A stretch of 45,026 nt of DNA from assembly GCA_028823035.1 (NCBI GenBank), contig JAPKCI010000027.1, positions 1 to 45,026 of the forward strand, in the 5' to 3' direction. This document shows positions 1,768 to 16,895 of the stretch, piece after piece. The notes beneath the pieces are model-generated. The model saw only the letters and a list, made by a program, of their open reading frames with translations, did not search any database and was not told the origin of the DNA. Every line of letters begins with the position of its first letter. The first letter of the stretch is position 1. The DNA comes from Rubripirellula sp. (lineage in GTDB: Bacteria; Planctomycetota; Planctomycetia; Pirellulales; Pirellulaceae). A program made the translations under genes and the position numbers.

Positions 1768-2112
1768 GGAAATTCCTGATGGGCGTGAATCGTATGCTGC
1801 CTAGATGTAAATTTCCATGATATCCGACTCAGCGGTCCGCAACCGACACCTGCACTGATGGACAGGAGTCCCCAGACAGGCACGAGGACCATTGGAAGCT
1901 GTCCTATGAACAGCTGTTTTTGCCGGCGTGGCCCTCGATACGGGCAAACTGAAAAGTTGCTTGATCTATACTGTTAGTCTCCCTTACCGGTGTCATGATG
2001 TCGTGCCTACGATTGTCGGTCATGGACATGCGCTCGGAGTTACGTTGATCTGAAGCCGTTCGGGCTACAGACAGAACCTGTCATGACAACTCAGGTTGTT
2101 GGAAGGACGGCG
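1768..2112. other. Divergent intergenic region
   Basis: This region separates the di-heme gene (-) from the ethanolamine ammonia-lyase gene (+) and must carry promoters for both. A TATACT hexamer at 1967-1972 could be a -10 box for the + gene, but no convincing -35 sits 16-18 bases upstream. A small GGCCC/GGGC hairpin lies around 1930-1944. I looked for a cobalamin riboswitch because the + gene should need B12, and saw no recognisable B12-box. No coding sequence is apparent. Confidence 0.4.
2101..2106 (+). promoter_or_regulatory. Shine-Dalgarno deciding the eutBC start
   Basis: GGAAGG lies 6 bases before the ATG at 2113, with a second in-frame ATG at 2116. The open frame extends upstream to 2083 without another ribosome binding site. 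Starting at 2113 puts the twin-arginine motif within the first six residues, typical of Tat signals. Confidence 0.55.
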
Positions 2113-4416
2113 ATGATGATCAGTAGACGGCAATTCGTTCGTACAACGGCCGCATGTGGCGCTGCAGCGCTGGGCAATGCAGCAGCGACCGGTTCGGCCA
2201 AGCCACTTCAGTCTTCTGCAGTGTCGTTAAACGACTGTCTTCCCGGGGAAGATATTTTCGGCTATTTGAATCGCGTCAATTCGAGATTTGATGAGGACTT
2301 GTACCGTCAGATTATCGGTGCTGCGAACCCTTTCAAGGAAGGTGATGCCACGATTGGAGTATCTGCAGATAACGATTCCGTTCGCGATATTGCACGGCAG
2401 CTTCTTTCCAACACACGTATCGCAGATTTGGATGATCATCAAATCAGTAGTGATCGGCTCACCAAATTGTTGCAACAGTCTGTCCAGGTCGATGCTCAAA
2501 CAAAAACACAAAATTTCACATTGAGCACGTTGAAGCAATTCCTGCTCAATCGGCCGGAGGATGAAATCAAAGCAGTTTTGCCGGGGCTTTCCAGCGATGT
2601 GATCGGCTGCATCGTGAAGTTGATGAGCAATGAAGAGCTGATAGCCGTTGGTTCAAAGATTTTTTATCCATTGCCGGGCAGTAAGATTGGTGCGCGTGGT
2701 TATCTGGGAGCTCGCGTTCAGCCAAATTCGCCCACTGACAATCTTGACGATATTCGCTGGCAGGTTTTTAACGCATGGTCTTATGCTGTCGGAGATGTGT
2801 TGCTGGGTACCAATCCAGTTTCCAGCGATCCGGAATCAGTGACTGCTGTGGAACTCACCCTGAAGGACATACTGGAGACATTTGGCGTGCAGGATGCGCT
2901 ACCACATTGTGTGCTGTCACACATCGATGTGCAGGCCGAAGTTGAACAACAACATCCGGACAGCACTGCTTTATGGTTCCAGAGCATTGCCGGCACAGAT
3001 GGCGCCAATCAAACGTTTGACATCAGTGTTGAAAAAATGCTGTCCTACGCTCGACAGAGGACAGGAAGGTTTGACTTGTACTTTGAAACTGGTCAGGGGG
3101 CTGACTTTACCAATGGCCATGGCAATGGATTCGACATGGTTGTCCATGAATCCAGAAAATACGGTTTTGCTCGTGCTTTGAAATACCAGGTTGCAAAGGG
3201 CAAGGCAGGCACAGACTTCGAGCCATGGGTTCATTTGAATGATGTTGCCGGCTTCATCGGACCCGAAGTGTTCCGAACAAAAGAACAGTTGGTCCGATGT
3301 TGTCTGGAAGACATCGTGATGGGAAAGTTGCACGGACTGACAATCGGGCTGGATGTTTGTTCAACGCTTCATATGGAAGTTTCACTGCAGGACCTCGATT
3401 GGTGTCTGGAACAGATCATGCCAGCGAGTCCCGCCTATTTGATGGCCTTGCCTACCAAAATTGACCCCATGCTGGGTTATCTCACGACAGGATTCCATGA
3501 TCATCTGCGGCTCCGTGAAAAATTTGGGTTTCGGGTAAACGACCGAATCTGGGAATTCTTTCAATCGATTGGCATTGTCGATGGTGAAGGAAATCCGACC
3601 GAACATTTTGGAGATCCCGGTTGGGTTTATCTTCAATACCAGCGACGCAAAGGAGATACCCGAACCGATTCAGCGATCCAAATAGAGGGGAGGGCACACA
3701 TTGAAGCAGTCCGTCAGCGCGGTGTCTTCATCGCTGAGGGATTTGGTGCGACAACGGGTGACCTTTCACCAAAAATCGCTGACGAGATTCGTCAAATCTA
3801 CGATGATGCGAAAAAAAGCATTTGGGCGGAACTGACACCGGAGTTTCTCGTCCAGATTCCCAGTTCGGTAACGCTCGCGACGCAATCAAAAGACCGCAAT
3901 GACTACATTCTGCATCCGCCTACCGGTGAGAAGTTAAGCGTGGAGTCCGCACTGGCAGTCGAGAAACTGCGGAGAGATCATGCTGGCAACTACGATGTTC
4001 AAGTGGTCATCTCGGACGGACTAAATGCATTGTCGATCATGGAGGAAAAACACTTGAAGCCATTTCTTGCCCAAGTCAAGCAACAACTAAAACTAAAAGG
4101 CTATCAGGCGGCGCCGGAAAACATCATTGTCAAATCTGGCCGCGTTCGAGCCGGGTATCAGATTGGAGAAATCCTGTACTCGCAGTCAAAGAACCCGAAA
4201 GCCCTGTTGCATGTGATTGGAGAACGTCCCGGTACAGGACATCGCACGTTTTCGATCTATATCACCGCTCCTGACGGGCAGATCTGGAGCAGCCCTGGCC
4301 GTGTTGACCACAACATCACGAAAGTGGTCTCAGGTGTGGCTTCGACAGCCTTGGCACCGCAAGCCGCTGCGAACGAAACCGTGCGATTGCTCATGTCGAT
4401 CACATCCCAATCATGA
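2113..4416 (+). CDS. eutBC: Fused EutB-EutC ethanolamine ammonia-lyase with Tat-like signal
   Basis: Ethanolamine ammonia-lyase converts ethanolamine to acetaldehyde and ammonia using adenosylcobalamin; its large (EutB) and small (EutC) subunits are normally separate. Here both are in one chain. The frame is open from 2083 (777 codons; residue numbers below use that start), but GGAAGG at 2101-2106 favours the ATG at 2113. EutB spans about 55-525. Residues matching E. coli R160, Q162, N193, E287, V326, F329 and D362 are R211, Q213, N244, E335, V388, F391 and D424. E. coli E257 is replaced by T311, and about 14 residues are inserted between E335 and F391. EutC spans about 585-777, with VVISDGLNALS (641-651) and HVIGERPG (710-717). 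A linker of about 60 residues joins them. The N-terminus reads ISRRQFVRTTAACGAAALG, a convincing twin-arginine signal. No eutA reactivase, microcompartment or aldehyde dehydrogenase gene is nearby. Confidence 0.93.
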   Translation: MMISRRQFVRTTAACGAAALGNAAATGSAKPLQSSAVSLNDCLPGEDIFGYLNRVNSRFDEDLYRQIIGAANPFKEGDATIGVSADNDSVRDIARQLLSNTRIADLDDHQISSDRLTKLLQQSVQVDAQTKTQNFTLSTLKQFLLNRPEDEIKAVLPGLSSDVIGCIVKLMSNEELIAVGSKIFYPLPGSKIGARGYLGARVQPNSPTDNLDDIRWQVFNAWSYAVGDVLLGTNPVSSDPESVTAVELTLKDILETFGVQDALPHCVLSHIDVQAEVEQQHPDSTALWFQSIAGTDGANQTFDISVEKMLSYARQRTGRFDLYFETGQGADFTNGHGNGFDMVVHESRKYGFARALKYQVAKGKAGTDFEPWVHLNDVAGFIGPEVFRTKEQLVRCCLEDIVMGKLHGLTIGLDVCSTLHMEVSLQDLDWCLEQIMPASPAYLMALPTKIDPMLGYLTTGFHDHLRLREKFGFRVNDRIWEFFQSIGIVDGEGNPTEHFGDPGWVYLQYQRRKGDTRTDSAIQIEGRAHIEAVRQRGVFIAEGFGATTGDLSPKIADEIRQIYDDAKKSIWAELTPEFLVQIPSSVTLATQSKDRNDYILHPPTGEKLSVESALAVEKLRRDHAGNYDVQVVISDGLNALSIMEEKHLKPFLAQVKQQLKLKGYQAAPENIIVKSGRVRAGYQIGEILYSQSKNPKALLHVIGERPGTGHRTFSIYITAPDGQIWSSPGRVDHNITKVVSGVASTALAPQAAANETVRLLMSITSQS

Positions 4417-10441: not shown

Positions 10442-12736
10442 TTGCCCGAAATCAAATTCTTCACCGTGCGAGTGCTGGTTCTCATTCTGGCATGCTCGTC
10501 CAACGTTGCTCTGGCAGCCGAGTATCGAGAGATTGTCTTGCCGTTTCTCCGGGCACGATGTGTTGAGTGTCACGGTGCGACGAATCCAGAAGCGGGTTTG
10601 CGATTGGACAACCTGCGGGCGGACTTTTCTGATGAATCGCAGGTTGACGTATGGCAACGAGTGCACGAACAAATCACTCTGGGGTCCATGCCACCTGTGG
10701 AAGCATCTCAGGAGCCAGTGGATTCTCAGGAGCCAGTGGATGAGGTCGAGCAGGTTACTGGATGGATTGCCGAGCAATTGCGAGCAGTGGGGCAGACACC
10801 GGTGGTGCAGTACAAACTGGGTTCGCCCGAGTTTGGCAACTATGTGAATCACGAACGGCTTTTTGATGGTTCGCACCTGGGGCCGGCGTCCTCTCCACCG
10901 CGACTGTGGCGTTTGAGTCCCTATGTTTATGACGATTTCGTGAATGGATTCGGACGACATCTGCGCGAAGTGACTGCGATTCACCAACCGTTCCCGCTTG
11001 ACGCGTCTCGGGGCGAGATCGCTGACTTTGCTGCTCAGCATGTCGCCGGCGAGGCAACGTTGCAACTATTGCTGATGAATTGCCAGACGCTGGCCGAGTA
11101 CCAGACCGCCGGCGTCACTTTTCGCGACCATGAAGGCAAGTTAAGAAAGGCGAAACGAACGCCGCCCGAGTTTGAAGCCATCCTCACAGCAGACGAAATG
11201 CCAACGGCCGAGATTCTTCGGGCTGCAATCGCGTTTGAATTCGACCTGCTGCTCGAACGACGACCCACTGCGGCAGAGTTCGAAAAGCTCGCAGCTTTCT
11301 TCCGCCAGGCGGCTATGGTTGGTGGCAACGTTCGAGCACTCCAGACAACCCTACAGGCGATCTTGATGAAGCCTGAGGCGGTGTACCGGATGGAGATAGG
11401 TCTCGGTGCGATTGACGAGAATGGTCGGCGCCGGTTGTCCCATGCCGAGCTGGCTTTTGCCATCGCGTATGCCCTGACGGACAAGGGACCGAGTGAAATC
11501 GAAGTCACTTCAAGAGACGGCGAAACTCGAACCAGTCTGCTTAAATTGGCTTTGAGTGGTGGCCTGACCGAACCCCGGGACATTCGGCGCGTCGTGGTGC
11601 AGATCCTGAACGACAACAACATGTCGACTGCCAACTATCGAATGTTCACACAGGATCATGGTGTTCGGAATACACGTACGCTGCGTTTTTTTCGCGAGTT
11701 CTTTGGTTATCATCATGCACCCAAGGTTTTCAAGGATGCGAAACGAATTGGTTTCGGAGATCGTTACCTGACGCAGCGGATGGTCGATGATGCAGATCAG
11801 TTGGTCATGCACATTTTTGATCAGGATCGTGACGTTCTGAAACGGTTGCTCACAACGGATGAGTACTTTGTTGCTTACCTCGGTTCGCTTGAGAACATCC
11901 AGCAGGATCTGCATTACATCAAGACAAACGAAGATGATGCCAATTTCGCCTTCAACACCAAGTATGTTCAGCTAGCCGAAGCTGAAGGCCGGCACCCGAT
12001 TCCTATTGAAGGACCGAGTTCGCGGCAGTACGTCGGGTTTTATAATCTCGACCATGCGACTTGGGATTATCCGACACAACAGCCATTTCAAATGCCGGGC
12101 GGGCAGCGGGCAGGGATTCTGACTCATCCTGCCTGGCTGATCGCCTGGAGTGGAAATTTCGACAATGACCCGATCCGTCGTGGCAAGTGGATTCGTGAGC
12201 ATCTGTTGGCGGGTACGATTCCTGATGTACCGCTGGATGTGAATGCCGTGGTGCCGGAGCATCGCGATCAATCGCTTCGCGAACGGCTTCAGGTCACACG
12301 CGATGAATACTGCTGGAAGTGCCACCAGAACATGGATCCATTGGGATTGCCGTTTGAACAGTTTGATGATTTCGGTCGGTATCGAAACAGCGAAATGGTG
12401 GGTGAGTTGCTTTCGATTTTTCCTGAACGCCACATTGATGCACCAACGTTGCCCATTGATACCGACGGAAGTGTCACCGATAGTGGCGACGAAGGGTTAG
12501 AGGGCGATGTGCAAAATGCGTTTGACCTGCTGCAGAAACTGGGTAGTTCGAAACGCGTTCGGCAGTCGTTTGTCCGCCACGCGTTTCGCTACTGGCTTGG
12601 ACGTAACGAAACGCTCGATGATTCACCAACGCTGATCGCTGCCGACGAAGCTTATGTCAAACATGGTGGCAGCATGAAGGCGATGATCGCATCGCTGCTG
12701 TCGTCCGACTCGTTCCTGTATCGAAAAGCGAAGTAA
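10442..12736 (+). CDS. Exported cytochrome-like DUF1592/DUF1588/DUF1585 protein
   Basis: This 764-residue exported protein has a signal peptide ending near ALAAE (residue 27). A first heme motif CVECH is at 40-44, in the planctomycete cytochrome context FLRARCVECHG. The DUF1592-type helical region follows (about 290-450), then a DUF1588 module with CWKCHQNMDPLGLPFEQFD (heme motif 624-628) and a C-terminal DUF1585 module with FRYWLGR (about 700-764). These proteins are exported c-type heme proteins of unknown reaction. The frame opens at a TTG (10442); a GTG at 10466 would give a shorter signal peptide, and neither has a good ribosome binding site. An 18-bp perfect duplication at 10706-10741 encodes SQEPVD twice. 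The DUF1552 gene starts 3 bases after its stop, the usual pairing. Confidence 0.93.
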   Translation: MPEIKFFTVRVLVLILACSSNVALAAEYREIVLPFLRARCVECHGATNPEAGLRLDNLRADFSDESQVDVWQRVHEQITLGSMPPVEASQEPVDSQEPVDEVEQVTGWIAEQLRAVGQTPVVQYKLGSPEFGNYVNHERLFDGSHLGPASSPPRLWRLSPYVYDDFVNGFGRHLREVTAIHQPFPLDASRGEIADFAAQHVAGEATLQLLLMNCQTLAEYQTAGVTFRDHEGKLRKAKRTPPEFEAILTADEMPTAEILRAAIAFEFDLLLERRPTAAEFEKLAAFFRQAAMVGGNVRALQTTLQAILMKPEAVYRMEIGLGAIDENGRRRLSHAELAFAIAYALTDKGPSEIEVTSRDGETRTSLLKLALSGGLTEPRDIRRVVVQILNDNNMSTANYRMFTQDHGVRNTRTLRFFREFFGYHHAPKVFKDAKRIGFGDRYLTQRMVDDADQLVMHIFDQDRDVLKRLLTTDEYFVAYLGSLENIQQDLHYIKTNEDDANFAFNTKYVQLAEAEGRHPIPIEGPSSRQYVGFYNLDHATWDYPTQQPFQMPGGQRAGILTHPAWLIAWSGNFDNDPIRRGKWIREHLLAGTIPDVPLDVNAVVPEHRDQSLRERLQVTRDEYCWKCHQNMDPLGLPFEQFDDFGRYRNSEMVGELLSIFPERHIDAPTLPIDTDGSVTDSGDEGLEGDVQNAFDLLQKLGSSKRVRQSFVRHAFRYWLGRNETLDDSPTLIAADEAYVKHGGSMKAMIASLLSSDSFLYRKAK
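10706..10741 (+). repeat. In-frame 18-bp tandem duplication
   Basis: TCTCAGGAGCCAGTGGAT occurs twice, back to back and identical, inside the DUF1592-type gene. It adds six residues (SQEPVD) to an acidic, probably surface-exposed linker after the first heme domain. Perfect identity points to a recent duplication. Confidence 0.9.
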
Positions 12737-12739
12737 ACC

Positions 12740-14173
12740 ATGTCACCGAGAACGCGTCGAGAACTGCTCAAGACGGCCGCTGCCGCCAGCGTTTCACCGT
12801 TGTTGTTCCCTTTCCTGCAGCGTGTTCAGGCAGAGGCCGCTGGTGCCTCGACGGCGATGCCCCAACGGTTCTTGTTCGTTGTGAAATGCAGCGGACTGAC
12901 TCCGGCTGAACTGGTACCCAAAGGATTGGCAAGCGAATTGACGCAACCGGGGAATGAGGAGGGTTGGCCCGCTGAGCTGAAACCAGTCGAATCGCTGCTG
13001 GACGTTTCGCTTGCCGATCATGAGCTTCCCGATTCTCTTCAGCCACTGTCGCCATTCAAGAACCATCTGACACTATTGCAGGGACTGTCAGGCAAGATGT
13101 GCCGAGGTGGTCATTCTGCTTGGTATGGGGCGATGGGTTGTTATCACACGGGAAGTGAAGGTAACCCGGGGCGGGCTGCCAGTCCGACGGTGGATGGTCT
13201 GCTTGCAAAGTCACTGCCTGCCATCTTTCCTCACGTTGGCTTGACGCTCGGTGGCAAGGTCCTATCGGGCGTCAAGGACACGGTGGTGTATCCCGGTATC
13301 TCGGCCATTGATACCGATCGGCCATTGCCCTATCAAGCCAGTCCCCAGATGGCCTACAAAAATCTATTCGGGATCGTCGCAACGGGAGCCGATGGGAAAG
13401 CAGAGCAACACTTGAACGCCATGCTGTTAGATCACATGGTCAGCGACGTCCAACACTTGCAGGGCCAGATTGCAGGTGCGGATCACCAGAAACTCGATCA
13501 CTATCTGGAGGCATTCGAGAGCTTGCGGGATCGACGCAGGAAACTGAGTGGTCTCGAGGCCACCATCCGGCGCCATGCTCCGCAAGTTGATGACAAGTAC
13601 GAGTCCAATGTGGAAACCGACCGGATCGAAGCCCACTTTGACATTGCCACTGCGACACTGATCGCAGGTCTCTCAAATGTGGTCACCATTCGCGCTGACA
13701 CCCTGGATATTACGTATCGCGGTTTGGGTATCCAAAAGCATGTGCATGGGCTCGGCCATGCGGAAACGGTACCCGGGATGACAGCTGTCGAAGCTCGCAA
13801 CCGCATTCGACGTTTTCAAGTCGAACAGATTGCCCGAGTCGCTGCCAAACTCAAGGCGGTGCCCGAGGGCGATGGCACGATGCTCGACAATACATTGATT
13901 GTCTACCTCAGTGACGCTGCCGAGAAACACCATGGCAGTTGTATCGAATGGCCTTTCGTTCTGCTGGGTGGCCTGGGCGATCAGTTCAAGCAAAGTGCTA
14001 ATGGCCGCTATCTACAATACCCAGGCTATGGAAAGCCAGGTCACCGTACCATCGCCTGTCTGTACAATTCGCTCCTGCATGCTGCGGGTCAACCTCGCGA
14101 TGTGTTTGGCCGTTTCGATCTGAATCTCGACGAATCGCAACAGCGAGGTCCTCTCTCAGAACTACTGCTGTGA
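12740..14173 (+). CDS. DUF1552 exported protein
   Basis: This 477-residue protein belongs to the DUF1552 family. The N-terminus has a twin-arginine signal (RTRRELLKTAAAASVSPLLF; RR at 6-7). The middle contains HSAWYGAMGCYHTGSEGNPG and a long helical part with LDHYLEAFESLRDRRRKL (about 250-275). The C-terminal part resembles the DUF1501/alkaline-phosphatase-like fold: IVYLSDAAEKHHG, then HRTIACLYNSLLHAAG. In this phylum DUF1552 genes commonly sit directly after DUF1592/1588/1585 genes, as here with a 3-base gap, implying a joint function of the exported pair. No enzymatic activity is established. It converges on the MBL hydrolase gene. Confidence 0.93.
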   Translation: MSPRTRRELLKTAAAASVSPLLFPFLQRVQAEAAGASTAMPQRFLFVVKCSGLTPAELVPKGLASELTQPGNEEGWPAELKPVESLLDVSLADHELPDSLQPLSPFKNHLTLLQGLSGKMCRGGHSAWYGAMGCYHTGSEGNPGRAASPTVDGLLAKSLPAIFPHVGLTLGGKVLSGVKDTVVYPGISAIDTDRPLPYQASPQMAYKNLFGIVATGADGKAEQHLNAMLLDHMVSDVQHLQGQIAGADHQKLDHYLEAFESLRDRRRKLSGLEATIRRHAPQVDDKYESNVETDRIEAHFDIATATLIAGLSNVVTIRADTLDITYRGLGIQKHVHGLGHAETVPGMTAVEARNRIRRFQVEQIARVAAKLKAVPEGDGTMLDNTLIVYLSDAAEKHHGSCIEWPFVLLGGLGDQFKQSANGRYLQYPGYGKPGHRTIACLYNSLLHAAGQPRDVFGRFDLNLDESQQRGPLSELLL

Positions 14174-14332
14174 CAGCAACAACACTCAGGGACTCGTTGA
14201 ATTTGGTCGCCTGATTCCAGCAGCTTGGGATGAATGGTTGCACGCAAACCGTGAAGCGAAGCGGGGAAGATCGCCTGACCTTGGATGTCCGTTCTCTGCC
14301 CCAAAGCCATGATGCCTTTTGGGCTGGGAAGC

Positions 14333-15100
14333 TCAAAGCTTCAGCGGTGGTGTTGCCGAGTCTCGACTGGCACAGTACACGGGAAACCGATCGCCAAGTA
14401 AACGACGATGCGTTTCGATTGCCAACTCTGGTGTGTTACTCTCTTCGGACAAGTGGGCCAGGCAAACCCATTTGAGTTTTGGCGATGCGGCACGCCGCAA
14501 TAGTTCAGCGGCATCCAGATTCGAAAGGTGTCCCCGCGAACTGCGGATGCGTTGCTTGAGACTTTCCGGGTAGAAGCTTCCCGCTAACATCTCTAGGTCA
14601 TGATTACTTTCAATGAAGACAGCATCGAGTTGCGGCAGGATCTCATCCAGTTCGTCGAACACGTGTCCCAGATCAGTCAGGATGCCTACTTTGTGGGTGC
14701 CATCGTCAACGACGAAAACGACCCCGTCGGCTGCATCGTGTGGGGTCGGGATGGTGTGAATGCGGACACTGTCGAGCACAAGCGTCGTGCCAGCCTCGAA
14801 ATGCCGAACATCGTGTAACTTTCCGAGCCGAATCTTGCGTTGGGCGACAGCCAGAGTTGCTGGCGTAACATAAATGGGAAGCCCGAACTTTCGCTGATAG
14901 ATGCCCATGCTCTGAGCGTGGTCGCGATGGTCATGAGAGATGATCAGGGCATCAACGTCACGAATCTCCCGGCCGTGCATCGCCAGACGGCTTTCCGCCT
15001 GTATGCCGCTGATGCCTGCATCAAAGAGTAGCCGCTTGCCGCCAGCTTCGACGTAAATGCAGTTACCACTGCTTCCGGATTGCAATGCGATGACTTCCAT
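14333..15100 (-). CDS. MBL-fold metallo-hydrolase (YycJ/WalJ-like)
   Basis: About 255 residues from the ATG at 15100. It begins MEVIALQSGSSGNCIYVEAG, the usual start of YycJ/WalJ-type metallo-beta-lactamase-fold proteins. The metal-binding motif SHDHRDH lies at 55-61, followed by the further ligands His (TIPTPHDAADG), Asp (ILTDLGHV) and His (LAHLSEESN). Members bind two metals and act as nucleases or phosphodiesterases; YycJ has been described as an exonuclease involved in DNA repair in Gram-positives. The open frame extends upstream to 15319, but that part is not family-like; an alternative ATG is at 15112. No export signal. Its genomic neighbours are functionally unrelated. Confidence 0.9.
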   Translation of the reverse strand: MEVIALQSGSSGNCIYVEAGGKRLLFDAGISGIQAESRLAMHGREIRDVDALIISHDHRDHAQSMGIYQRKFGLPIYVTPATLAVAQRKIRLGKLHDVRHFEAGTTLVLDSVRIHTIPTPHDAADGVVFVVDDGTHKVGILTDLGHVFDELDEILPQLDAVFIESNHDLEMLAGSFYPESLKQRIRSSRGHLSNLDAAELLRRAASPKLKWVCLAHLSEESNTPELAIETHRRLLGDRFPVYCASRDSATPPLKL

Positions 15101-15491
15101 GGTGAAAAGCATAATGCAGGGAATCGTCTTTGAGCAATCCGACACAGTTGAAGATGTGTCAGCAACAGTTGTGAGTTGATCCCGATAAGCTTTAGGAATA
15201 CAGGTCAATTGCCCGAACTCTGCCGCGCAATGCGTGGCAGAAACTAAAGGTAGCTGAAGGGGTTCATTGACCGTGATTTCATACAGTAAACCCAATGCGT
15301 TGGGTAAATGAACCACCAAGTCAATCGGCTTGACGGTCAGCGTGCAGGATTAGAACCTGTGCCAGATAATCAGGTTCGAAACCTAAAAAAAGGATGGGAA
15401 GGTCGTCTGAACTGGATAGAATCTTTGCAATCCAGCGAAGTGAGTCAACACCTTCATTTCGTCTGGATGGTCATTTTCGCAGGATCTCGGC
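15101..15491. other. Intergenic region with small hairpins
   Basis: Between the divergent MBL and DUF1501 genes I see no gene. A hairpin ACCCAA-TGCG-TTGGGT lies near 15290-15306. At about 15342-15394 two short stem-loops (CAGG-ATTAGAA-CCTG and AGGTT-CGA-AACCT, the latter followed by seven A) superficially resemble tRNA arms, but no complete tRNA can be folded. Promoters for both genes should lie here. Confidence 0.35.
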
Positions 15492-16895
15492 ATGCACAAT
15501 TATGAATTGAACCGCCGGCAGGCCCTCGTAGCGGCAGGCATGGGTGCGATGTCACTGAACATGCCGGGGTCGGTGATGGGTAGTGACTCGCTGAATGCAA
15601 GTGGCAATGCCGTTGCTGCAGAGAAGTCTTGCATTTTTGTGTTGTTGTGCGGCGGACCAAGCCATGTTGACACGTGGGACATGAAACCGGATGCACCCAC
15701 CACAATCCGAGGACCCTACAAACCAATCTCGACCAAAGTACCCGGGATGCGCATCAATGAGATGCACACGCAGTTGGCGAAGGTGACAGACCAGTTCACC
15801 CTCATCAACTCGATGACACATCCGGGTGGTATCAGCAATCACTTCGATGCCATGCACAACCTGCTCAGCGGCCAATCGGAGGGTCGTGTGCAACAGGGTG
15901 TGAGTGATGACAGACCTTATCTGGGTTCGTTTGTCGCCAAGCACAATCCGAGCAAACGGAATATCGTCTCCAATGCCTGGCTGATCAAGTGTGTCGGACG
16001 GCCGGTGTTTTGCGCGCCCAATATTGCCATTGGCGGTTATCTCGGTTCAGCCTACGCCCCGGTGTTCGTAGGCTCAGCGAAAAACCACCCCGCGATGGAC
16101 GATTTTACGCCGCCCCCGATTTATGAACTTGGCGACGCGGACCGGCTTGCCCAACGCCGCAAGTTGCTCAGTAGCATGGAGAGCAAAGTGTTGAGCAAGG
16201 ATGCCGCTGGCACAGACTGGACGGATTTGCGTGAGAAGGCATACGATGCGATGACGCGCCCTGAGGGACGGGAGGCGTTCAATCTGAACCGCGAGCCGAC
16301 GAAAATACGAGATCAGTACGGGCGTCATCCACTTGGGCAGAACCTGCTGCTTGCCCGGCGCATGGTTGAGGCCGGTGTGCGGTTCGTCACCGTCAACGGC
16401 TGGACCGGTCAAGCCGCACACGAAACCTCCGGACCACCCAGTAGCAGTTGGGACATGCACGGCGGGAACATGGGGATGGGGAATGCCTTTGGTGATGGTT
16501 CCTACGGCATGGGCTTCTGTCTGCCTCGACTGGACCAGGCACTTGCTGCGTTGCTGTCCGACCTCAAAGAACGCGGCATGATGGAAAATACGCTTGTGGT
16601 TGTGACTGGTGAGTTTGGCCGCACACCCAAGGTGTTGACGCAGGAACCTCCAGGACGCCAGCACTGGCCAAAGTGTTTCTCTGCCATCATGGCTGGCGCG
16701 GGTATCGCCGGTGGGCAAGTCTATGGCAAGTCAAATAAACATGGCGAGTATCCCACCAGCAATCCCGTTCGCCCCGAGGAACTGGCGGCAACGATCTACC
16801 ACGCCCTCGACATTCCACTTAACGAACCGCAAAACAATACCGGCATTTCTCGCCCTATCACCACGGGCAAACCAATCATGGAATTGTTTGGTTGA
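15492..16895 (+). CDS. DUF1501 exported protein, copy 1
   Basis: This 467-residue DUF1501 protein (alkaline-phosphatase-like superfamily) has a twin-arginine motif NRRQALVAAG at 7-16. The N-terminal core motif GGPSHVDTWDMKP is at 54-66, GRHPLGQNLLLARRMVEAGVR follows in the middle, and the late motif is GEFGRTPKV followed by HWPKCFSAIMAGAG. In superfamily enzymes the corresponding Asp and His residues bind metal; whether DUF1501 proteins hydrolyse anything is not established. AGGATC lies just before the ATG. The DRPYL...AKHNPSKRNI region and the glycine/methionine-rich HGGNMGMGNAFGDG loop are copy-specific. A broken DUF1501 remnant follows about 125 bases downstream. Confidence 0.95.
   Translation: MHNYELNRRQALVAAGMGAMSLNMPGSVMGSDSLNASGNAVAAEKSCIFVLLCGGPSHVDTWDMKPDAPTTIRGPYKPISTKVPGMRINEMHTQLAKVTDQFTLINSMTHPGGISNHFDAMHNLLSGQSEGRVQQGVSDDRPYLGSFVAKHNPSKRNIVSNAWLIKCVGRPVFCAPNIAIGGYLGSAYAPVFVGSAKNHPAMDDFTPPPIYELGDADRLAQRRKLLSSMESKVLSKDAAGTDWTDLREKAYDAMTRPEGREAFNLNREPTKIRDQYGRHPLGQNLLLARRMVEAGVRFVTVNGWTGQAAHETSGPPSSSWDMHGGNMGMGNAFGDGSYGMGFCLPRLDQALAALLSDLKERGMMENTLVVVTGEFGRTPKVLTQEPPGRQHWPKCFSAIMAGAGIAGGQVYGKSNKHGEYPTSNPVRPEELAATIYHALDIPLNEPQNNTGISRPITTGKPIMELFG

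Follow-up and report, generated by a model that had tools for sequence, protein, structure and literature searches.

Textbooks describe ethanolamine ammonia-lyase as a radical enzyme that acts inside the cell; its adenosylcobalamin (AdoCbl) cofactor lies between EutB and EutC. The window analyzed here, the whole 45,026-nucleotide stretch of contig JAPKCI010000027.1 from Rubripirellula sp. (assembly GCA_028823035.1), carries a eutBC gene in which both halves are fused in a single chain behind a twin-arginine translocation (Tat) signal. Judged from its residues and signal, the encoded protein is probably an AdoCbl-dependent ethanolamine ammonia-lyase that would work outside the cytoplasm. The Escherichia coli EutB/EutC enzyme (3abo) shares the fold, the substrate residues and most of the cobalamin contacts with the family of the window protein, whereas the latter is a single chain with an export signal, and no linked shell, EutA or EutH was seen. 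Tat is able to carry a folded chain with its cofactor. A twin-arginine signal on a corrinoid enzyme has a precedent in the Tat-exported reductive dehalogenases (RdhA), although RdhA is an Fe-S reductase and is not known to use AdoCbl radical chemistry. According to the RdhA passages of one report, the motif was present in 27 of 29 RdhA proteins of one genome (PMC4918011).

Fused EutBC proteins were published in 2012 for Pelobacter carbinolicus, a fermenter whose strains split ethanolamine and grow on it (PMC3543383). The section of that paper on these proteins describes two copies, EutBC1 (Pcar_0491) and EutBC2 (Pcar_0467), each an unusual fusion, 70% identical to one another and each adjoining a solute-binding protein and a multitransmembrane protein. 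Cobalamin biosynthesis genes lie between them, corrinoid-transporter-like genes lie alongside and no eutA is reported; its authors raised the possibility that ethanolamine and choline are split by different lyases. The same section makes no mention of a signal peptide on EutBC, and the two body passages of the paper that treat signal peptides deal with cytochromes and geopilins (PMC3543383). One of our genomes, G1190, contained two fused EutBC about 28.6 kb apart and 71% identical, which were its only EutB matches. The gene order Gcw_chp, SBP_bac_6, EutBC and one further protein agreed with the locus tags of the paper; a CobA-type adenosyltransferase gene was found between the copies, and Peripla_BP_2 and ATP-binding cassette (ABC) ATPase genes beside one of them. 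G1190 is almost certainly P. carbinolicus. If it is, both P. carbinolicus proteins are members of the family described here; unlike the window protein, with its Tat signal, both copies open with a Sec signal of the classical type, whose last residues are AGA. No EutH match and no bacterial microcompartment (BMC) shell match was found in G1190. The fusion has been known since 2012; no exported ethanolamine ammonia-lyase was found in a literature search judged from titles and abstract openings.

The features of the window that bear on the fused gene are as follows.

2103 to 2107, forward strand: AAGGA, Shine-Dalgarno-like, 5 bases upstream of the ATG at 2113 and 8 upstream of the ATG at 2116
2113 to 4416, forward strand: fused eutBC gene; a start at 2113 or 2116 is likely, and the longest frame runs from 2083
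2116 to 2199, forward strand: Tat signal peptide, SRRQF with RR at 2125-2130, then hydrophobic TTAACGAAALGNAAATG; TAT_signal 24.4 bits
2302 to 3603, forward strand: EutB domain (Pfam, residues 74-507, 444.8 bits; fold match 3abo_A)
3790 to 4407, forward strand: EutC domain (Pfam, residues 570-775, 112.7 bits; fold match 3abo_B)

The open reading frame (ORF) 2083-4416 on the forward strand is intact, with 777 codons. A sequence-only reading of this DNA had proposed that it fuses EutB and EutC behind a twin-arginine signal; the two Pfam matches bear out the fusion, and the N-terminal string quoted there is correct. The Pfam TAT_signal model scored 24.4 bits, above its cut-off of 22.7, on a 70-residue piece translated from the ATG at 2116 (M-I-S-R-R-Q-F...), and 21.2 bits, slightly below the cut-off, on the 777-residue frame from 2083. 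A start at 2083 is probably wrong, because no Shine-Dalgarno match was found there, AAGGA precedes 2113 and 2116, and four close homologues (L031-L034) begin with M-K/R-I-N/S-RRQF at the same place; translation most likely begins at 2113 or 2116. The earlier reading had named transcription starting downstream of the signal as contrary evidence. The in-frame start codons downstream of the signal up to 2400 (2221, 2266 and 2299) all lacked a Shine-Dalgarno match.

Family searches and a scan of genome contigs showed that the window protein belongs to a fused EutBC family spread across several phyla. The loci are a non-random sample, picked by likeness to the query or as part of the matches fetched. 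After removal of a 64-residue fragment (L071) and two repeats (L036 and L090), 134 frames were left; removal of three truncated frames (L035, L055 and L065) and six near-copies at 95% (L075, L079, L042, L180, L062 and L178) gave 125, consisting of 114 family members and 11 other rows. One of the latter, L067, was placed there by the score cut-off and is a truncated, signal-less family member. The set leaves out several Myxococcota matches with frames of about 749 residues, as well as the second copy in each of G396 and G399. In a tree of 123 mature domains, built by a quick method and rooted at the midpoint, the 114 rows fell on one branch (support 99 by the Shimodaira-Hasegawa-like approximate likelihood ratio test), apart from 9 other fused rows.

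The fused ORF is the only EutB match in the 7.4-Mb genome of the window (G000), and a single EutB match was found in 27 of 30 genomes reached through loci from the contig scan. EutB of any kind occurred in 30 of 392 genomes of the phylum of the window (12 canonical and 18 fused, 16 of the latter in the exported family), in 26 of 297 and 50 of 244 genomes of the phylum and class, respectively, of the Geobacteraceae genome G411 (L056), in 9 of 296 Bacteroidota genomes (phylum of G407) and in 66 of 146 Myxococcota genomes (phylum of G396).

Export signals were called by a start-agnostic rule, run on the in-frame stretch upstream of the conserved domain. By this rule 93 of the 114 dereplicated family members carry a signal, versus 1 of 67 canonical EutB and none of the 11 other rows; 65 of the canonical controls have frames of at most 553 residues, and two (L002 and L133) lie inside long open frames. 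Of the 114 members, 48 were called Tat and 34 Sec; a further 11 had a Tat signal with a lipobox, and 21 had no signal. In 100 shuffles the rule was passed by a mean of 16.3 and a maximum of 27 members, and the 59 Tat calls compared with a mean of 2.7 (maximum, 7). Because of these differences, the twin-arginine signal of the family, as read by the rule, is not due to chance. After correction by eye (L242, L234, L239, L247, L174 and L063 changed from Tat to Sec, and L251 from none to Tat), 43 members counted as Tat and 40 as Sec; the 11 Tat forms with a lipobox were unchanged, and 20 members were left without a signal. The motifs in the 54 Tat rows were RRxF (40), RRx[LVMIY] (8) and RKxF (6), and the Sec rows end, by eye, in AGA/SSA/SGA-like cleavage sites. 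The lipobox forms were found in Archangium, other Myxococcota and Saprospiraceae. Among planctomycetes, 12 of 14 dereplicated members are Tat by the rule, and the near-copies L075 and L079 look the same by eye. The invariant arginine in a 53-row Tat alignment is no evidence, since these rows were chosen by motif.

On the tree the signal labels required 11 changes, versus 65 when shuffled. The Sec rows form one region, in which a Tat trio (L165, L256 and L258) is nested (support 100 for the trio and 95 for the surrounding set). Tat and Sec signals thus take one another's place on the tree, so that export seems to persist although its pathway shifts, and to have been lost or never gained in places. 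Replacement of RR by a Sec signal argues for export more strongly than conservation of RR alone would. The sequence-only reading had asked for homologues with the same fusion and a conserved twin-arginine segment: most homologues do bear a signal, but RR gives way to Sec in 40 of the 114. It had described one very unusual protein, and a family across phyla was found; the export itself is supported by the comparison. A Tat translocase is available, with TatC found in G000 (contig C219, 193.6 bits) and in 36 of 38 genomes searched.

Taken by their signals, export of the fused EutBC family from the cytoplasm is very likely. Some observations weigh against it. Twenty of the 114 members are signal-less, 16 of them in one Myxococcota clade, so that homologues without the N-terminal 40 residues, which the earlier reading had named as contrary evidence, do exist as a minority; L067 is also signal-less, and the further Myxococcota matches not taken in are probably likewise. 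The fused enzyme can also be cytoplasmic, as read from the signals, because three Myxococcota genomes carry a signal-less copy beside a Tat-lipobox copy (L183 and L184 in G1137, L181 and L182 in G1120, L201 and L202 in G1147). General Tat hidden Markov models reached few of the 53 Tat rows at E <=0.05 (Pfam, 10; TIGR01409, 12). TatC was not found in 2 of the 38 genomes (G404 and G421), both metagenome-assembled genomes reached via Tat-type loci. The signal-less members and the low yield of the Tat models would suit an ordinary enzyme that mostly remains in the cytoplasm, its N-terminus serving as a tether or as an inefficient signal. That explanation is very unlikely given that three signal kinds swap for one another on the tree, that only one canonical EutB passes the same rule and that the Sec rows show AGA/SSA/SGA-like cleavage sites by eye.

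The residues of the catalytic site were compared next with those of E. coli. The substrate residues R160, Q162, N193, E287, F329 and D362 (E. coli EutB numbering) correspond to R211, Q213, N244, E335, F391 and D424 of the 777-residue window frame and are invariant in the alignment of all 114 members; their retention had been asserted before and is thus extended to the family. The cobalamin contacts, which in UniProt annotation are EutB P194, Q246, S295 and M401 and EutC V207, E228 and C258, are kept for the most part but not throughout: P194, Q246 and M401 are invariant in 114 of 114, and among the rows readable at the EutC positions V207 is found in all 113 and E228 in all 111. In the window protein V688 and E714, on the cobalamin side of EutC, are kept, and V stands at the position of C258. 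The NCBIfam EutB score was 582.2, above the cut-off of 554. An AlphaFold2 model built with 57 sequences reached a mean predicted local distance difference test (pLDDT) of 90.4 and a predicted template modelling (TM) score of 0.89. It matched E. coli EutB (3abo_A) with a target-normalized TM-score of 0.89 at 2.3 Å (31% identity in the fold alignment) and EutC (3abo_B) with 0.68 at 4.7 Å. Residues 1-42 of the 777-residue frame had a pLDDT below 50, as would be expected of a cleaved signal and tail in such a model. The ratio of non-synonymous to synonymous substitution of the mature part was 0.04-0.27 in the 10 computable of 11 close pairs (8 signal-bearing and 2 signal-less); the pair of the window protein and L031 was saturated and left out. 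Cysteine content, taken as a mark of location, showed no clear difference (means, 6.7 to 8.4).

Other fused EutBC proteins (L077, L081, L259 and L260; L261-L263 and L068; L176 and L177) resemble the family in having about 700 residues or more and in aligning through EutB and EutC, but they are signal-less and lie outside the family branch (L260 is not in the tree). The first four are a kind of their own with A or S at D362 and may act on another substrate; L077 and L081 are about 28% identical to the window protein, and EutA adjoins L077 in G061 and lies on a different contig from L081 in G081. L261, L262, L263 and L068 are a further kind, with D362 kept and no signal, beside the exported family in the midpoint-rooted tree.

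Two points count against an AdoCbl-dependent ethanolamine ammonia-lyase: the NCBIfam EutC score of the window protein was 89.9 bits, below the cut-off of 230, indicating a divergent EutC half, and S295 is T in 114 of 114 members, with C258 replaced by V (95) or L (15). The protein might be exported and active on another amino alcohol or choline. The family-wide T at S295 would suit this, as would the two copies of P. carbinolicus together with the suggestion of distinct lyases cited above. The six substrate residues match those of E. coli EutB, however, and make a different substrate quite unlikely. The known choline trimethylamine-lyase, CutC, is an unrelated glycyl radical enzyme, which also counts against it.

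The genes around the family members were assigned to families from a single representative per cluster; in 101 loci these included Gcw_chp (11), solute-binding proteins (7) and FecCD (6). A recurrent order in the Sec clade, SBP_bac_6, Gcw_chp, EutBC, one protein, ABC ATPase, Peripla_BP_2 and FecCD, was full in L054 and L059 and partial elsewhere. Six of the 101 loci hold an aldehyde:ferredoxin oxidoreductase cluster; five of these are of the Sec type and one, L165, is of the Tat type, and in L165 an acetate kinase gene lies immediately upstream of the lyase. Genes of these kinds would be anticipated where cobalamin is taken up and acetaldehyde consumed. The protein encoded directly 3' of the fused gene in the Sec clade (L059 8455-9234 and relatives in cluster c6; L232 4854-5675) is conserved, had no Pfam match, contains hydrophobic segments and is a candidate partner. 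A PduO-type adenosyltransferase was found in 50 of 59 genomes, including G000; none was found in the other 9, in which the CobA type was not searched.

The genomic context also speaks in part against an active enzyme outside the cytoplasm. No eut, cobalamin or transport gene was found among the annotated neighbours in the window and the planctomycete loci, and no cobalamin-uptake or acetaldehyde-use partner among those of the window, planctomycete, myxobacterial and Bacteroidota loci. No cobalamin riboswitch reached the Rfam gathering threshold in the window, 11 Sec-type and 9 planctomycete loci. Full-length EutA was absent from the 45 family genomes searched, including G000, and AdoCbl cannot be re-adenosylated with ATP outside the cytoplasm. 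BMC shell genes are present in 25 of the 45 family genomes, including G000, although never on the contig of the fused gene, and in single-contig genomes they lie >1.7 Mb away; the two BMC genes of G000 are on another contig (C168). Partial weak EutA matches occurred in 17 genomes, with scores from 20.6 to 36.8 bits, 13 of them above the cut-off; they are presumably other actin-like ATPases. EutH was found in none of 65 genomes (family and canonical-EutB controls), including G000, so that a microcompartment eut set of shell, EutA and EutH with the lyase was not seen in G000 (EutA, 0; EutH, 0). The absence of EutA says nothing specific to the family, because 12 planctomycete genomes with canonical EutB also lack it in full length. 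Missing EutA and EutH were considered as a sign of a special mechanism and rejected, as the canonical-EutB control genomes lack them too.

The absence of full-length EutA, the lack of ATP outside and the BtuF/BtuC/BtuD-like and solute-binding protein genes linked to the lyase in the Sec clade would fit an exported cobalamin- or ethanolamine-binding or scavenging protein that is not a working lyase, as its AdoCbl could not be renewed there. This explanation is rather unlikely. None of the six substrate residues varies among the 114 members, not even D362, a position at which 4 of the 10 rows of other fused types have A or S; the aldehyde:ferredoxin oxidoreductase cluster in six loci and the acetate kinase at L165 would fit use of the product; and the canonical-EutB planctomycetes do without full-length EutA as well. 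Catalysis outside the cytoplasm is proposed as the best explanation.

Further observations concern the surroundings of eutB genes. At 427-1767 on the reverse strand of the window, a divergently oriented neighbour encodes a 446-residue protein with a Sec-like N-terminus and two CxxCH motifs; it had no Pfam match and no relative among the clustered neighbours of the other loci. Window positions 10442-16895 hold a cytochrome-type PSCyt/PSD gene with DUF1552 and DUF1501 genes, a set common in planctomycetes. DUF1501/PSCyt genes near the loci of genus g10 were considered as partners and rejected, as they resemble gene pairs that are usual in planctomycetes. Four canonical-EutB planctomycetes (G149:C155, G178:C100, G118:C419 and G240:C22) have a weak BMC-shell match of 26 to 31 bits near eutB on the same contig, which is not the case for the fused genes.

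The working of the exported enzyme may be pictured as follows. The observed fusion would allow the two parts of the cofactor site to be exported as one unit. With the cofactor between EutB and EutC, this would account for the fusion of the exported forms, although fusion does not need export, since signal-less fused copies exist. The Tat signal of the window protein would carry the folded chain over the inner membrane, probably with cobalamin already bound, and the lipobox forms are probably anchored by lipid. The Sec forms of the Geobacter/Pelobacter kind would have to take up cobalamin in the periplasm, which the linked BtuF/BtuC/BtuD-like genes could supply. Outside, ethanolamine would be converted to acetaldehyde and ammonia by the usual radical chemistry, as the residues suggest. 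Both products would return to the cell. There the acetaldehyde may be taken up by, for instance, an aldehyde:ferredoxin oxidoreductase, whose gene is linked in six Desulfobacterota-type loci only. With this reaction outside, the cell could do without an ethanolamine importer and without a shell to enclose aldehyde formation. The broader proposal, which we hold with about equal belief and doubt, is that the whole family performs AdoCbl radical chemistry outside the cytoplasm, breaking ethanolamine either in the periplasm or on the surface of the membrane as an alternative to the microcompartment for keeping acetaldehyde from the cytosol, with the Sec branch drawing its cofactor from imported periplasmic cobalamin.

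P. carbinolicus is a cultured organism for testing, whose only EutB genes, if it is G1190, are two signal-bearing fusions. If the proposal is true, neither an ethanolamine importer nor a shell would be a universal requirement, and ideas on how AdoCbl enzymes are loaded with cofactor, reactivated and exposed to oxygen would need revision.

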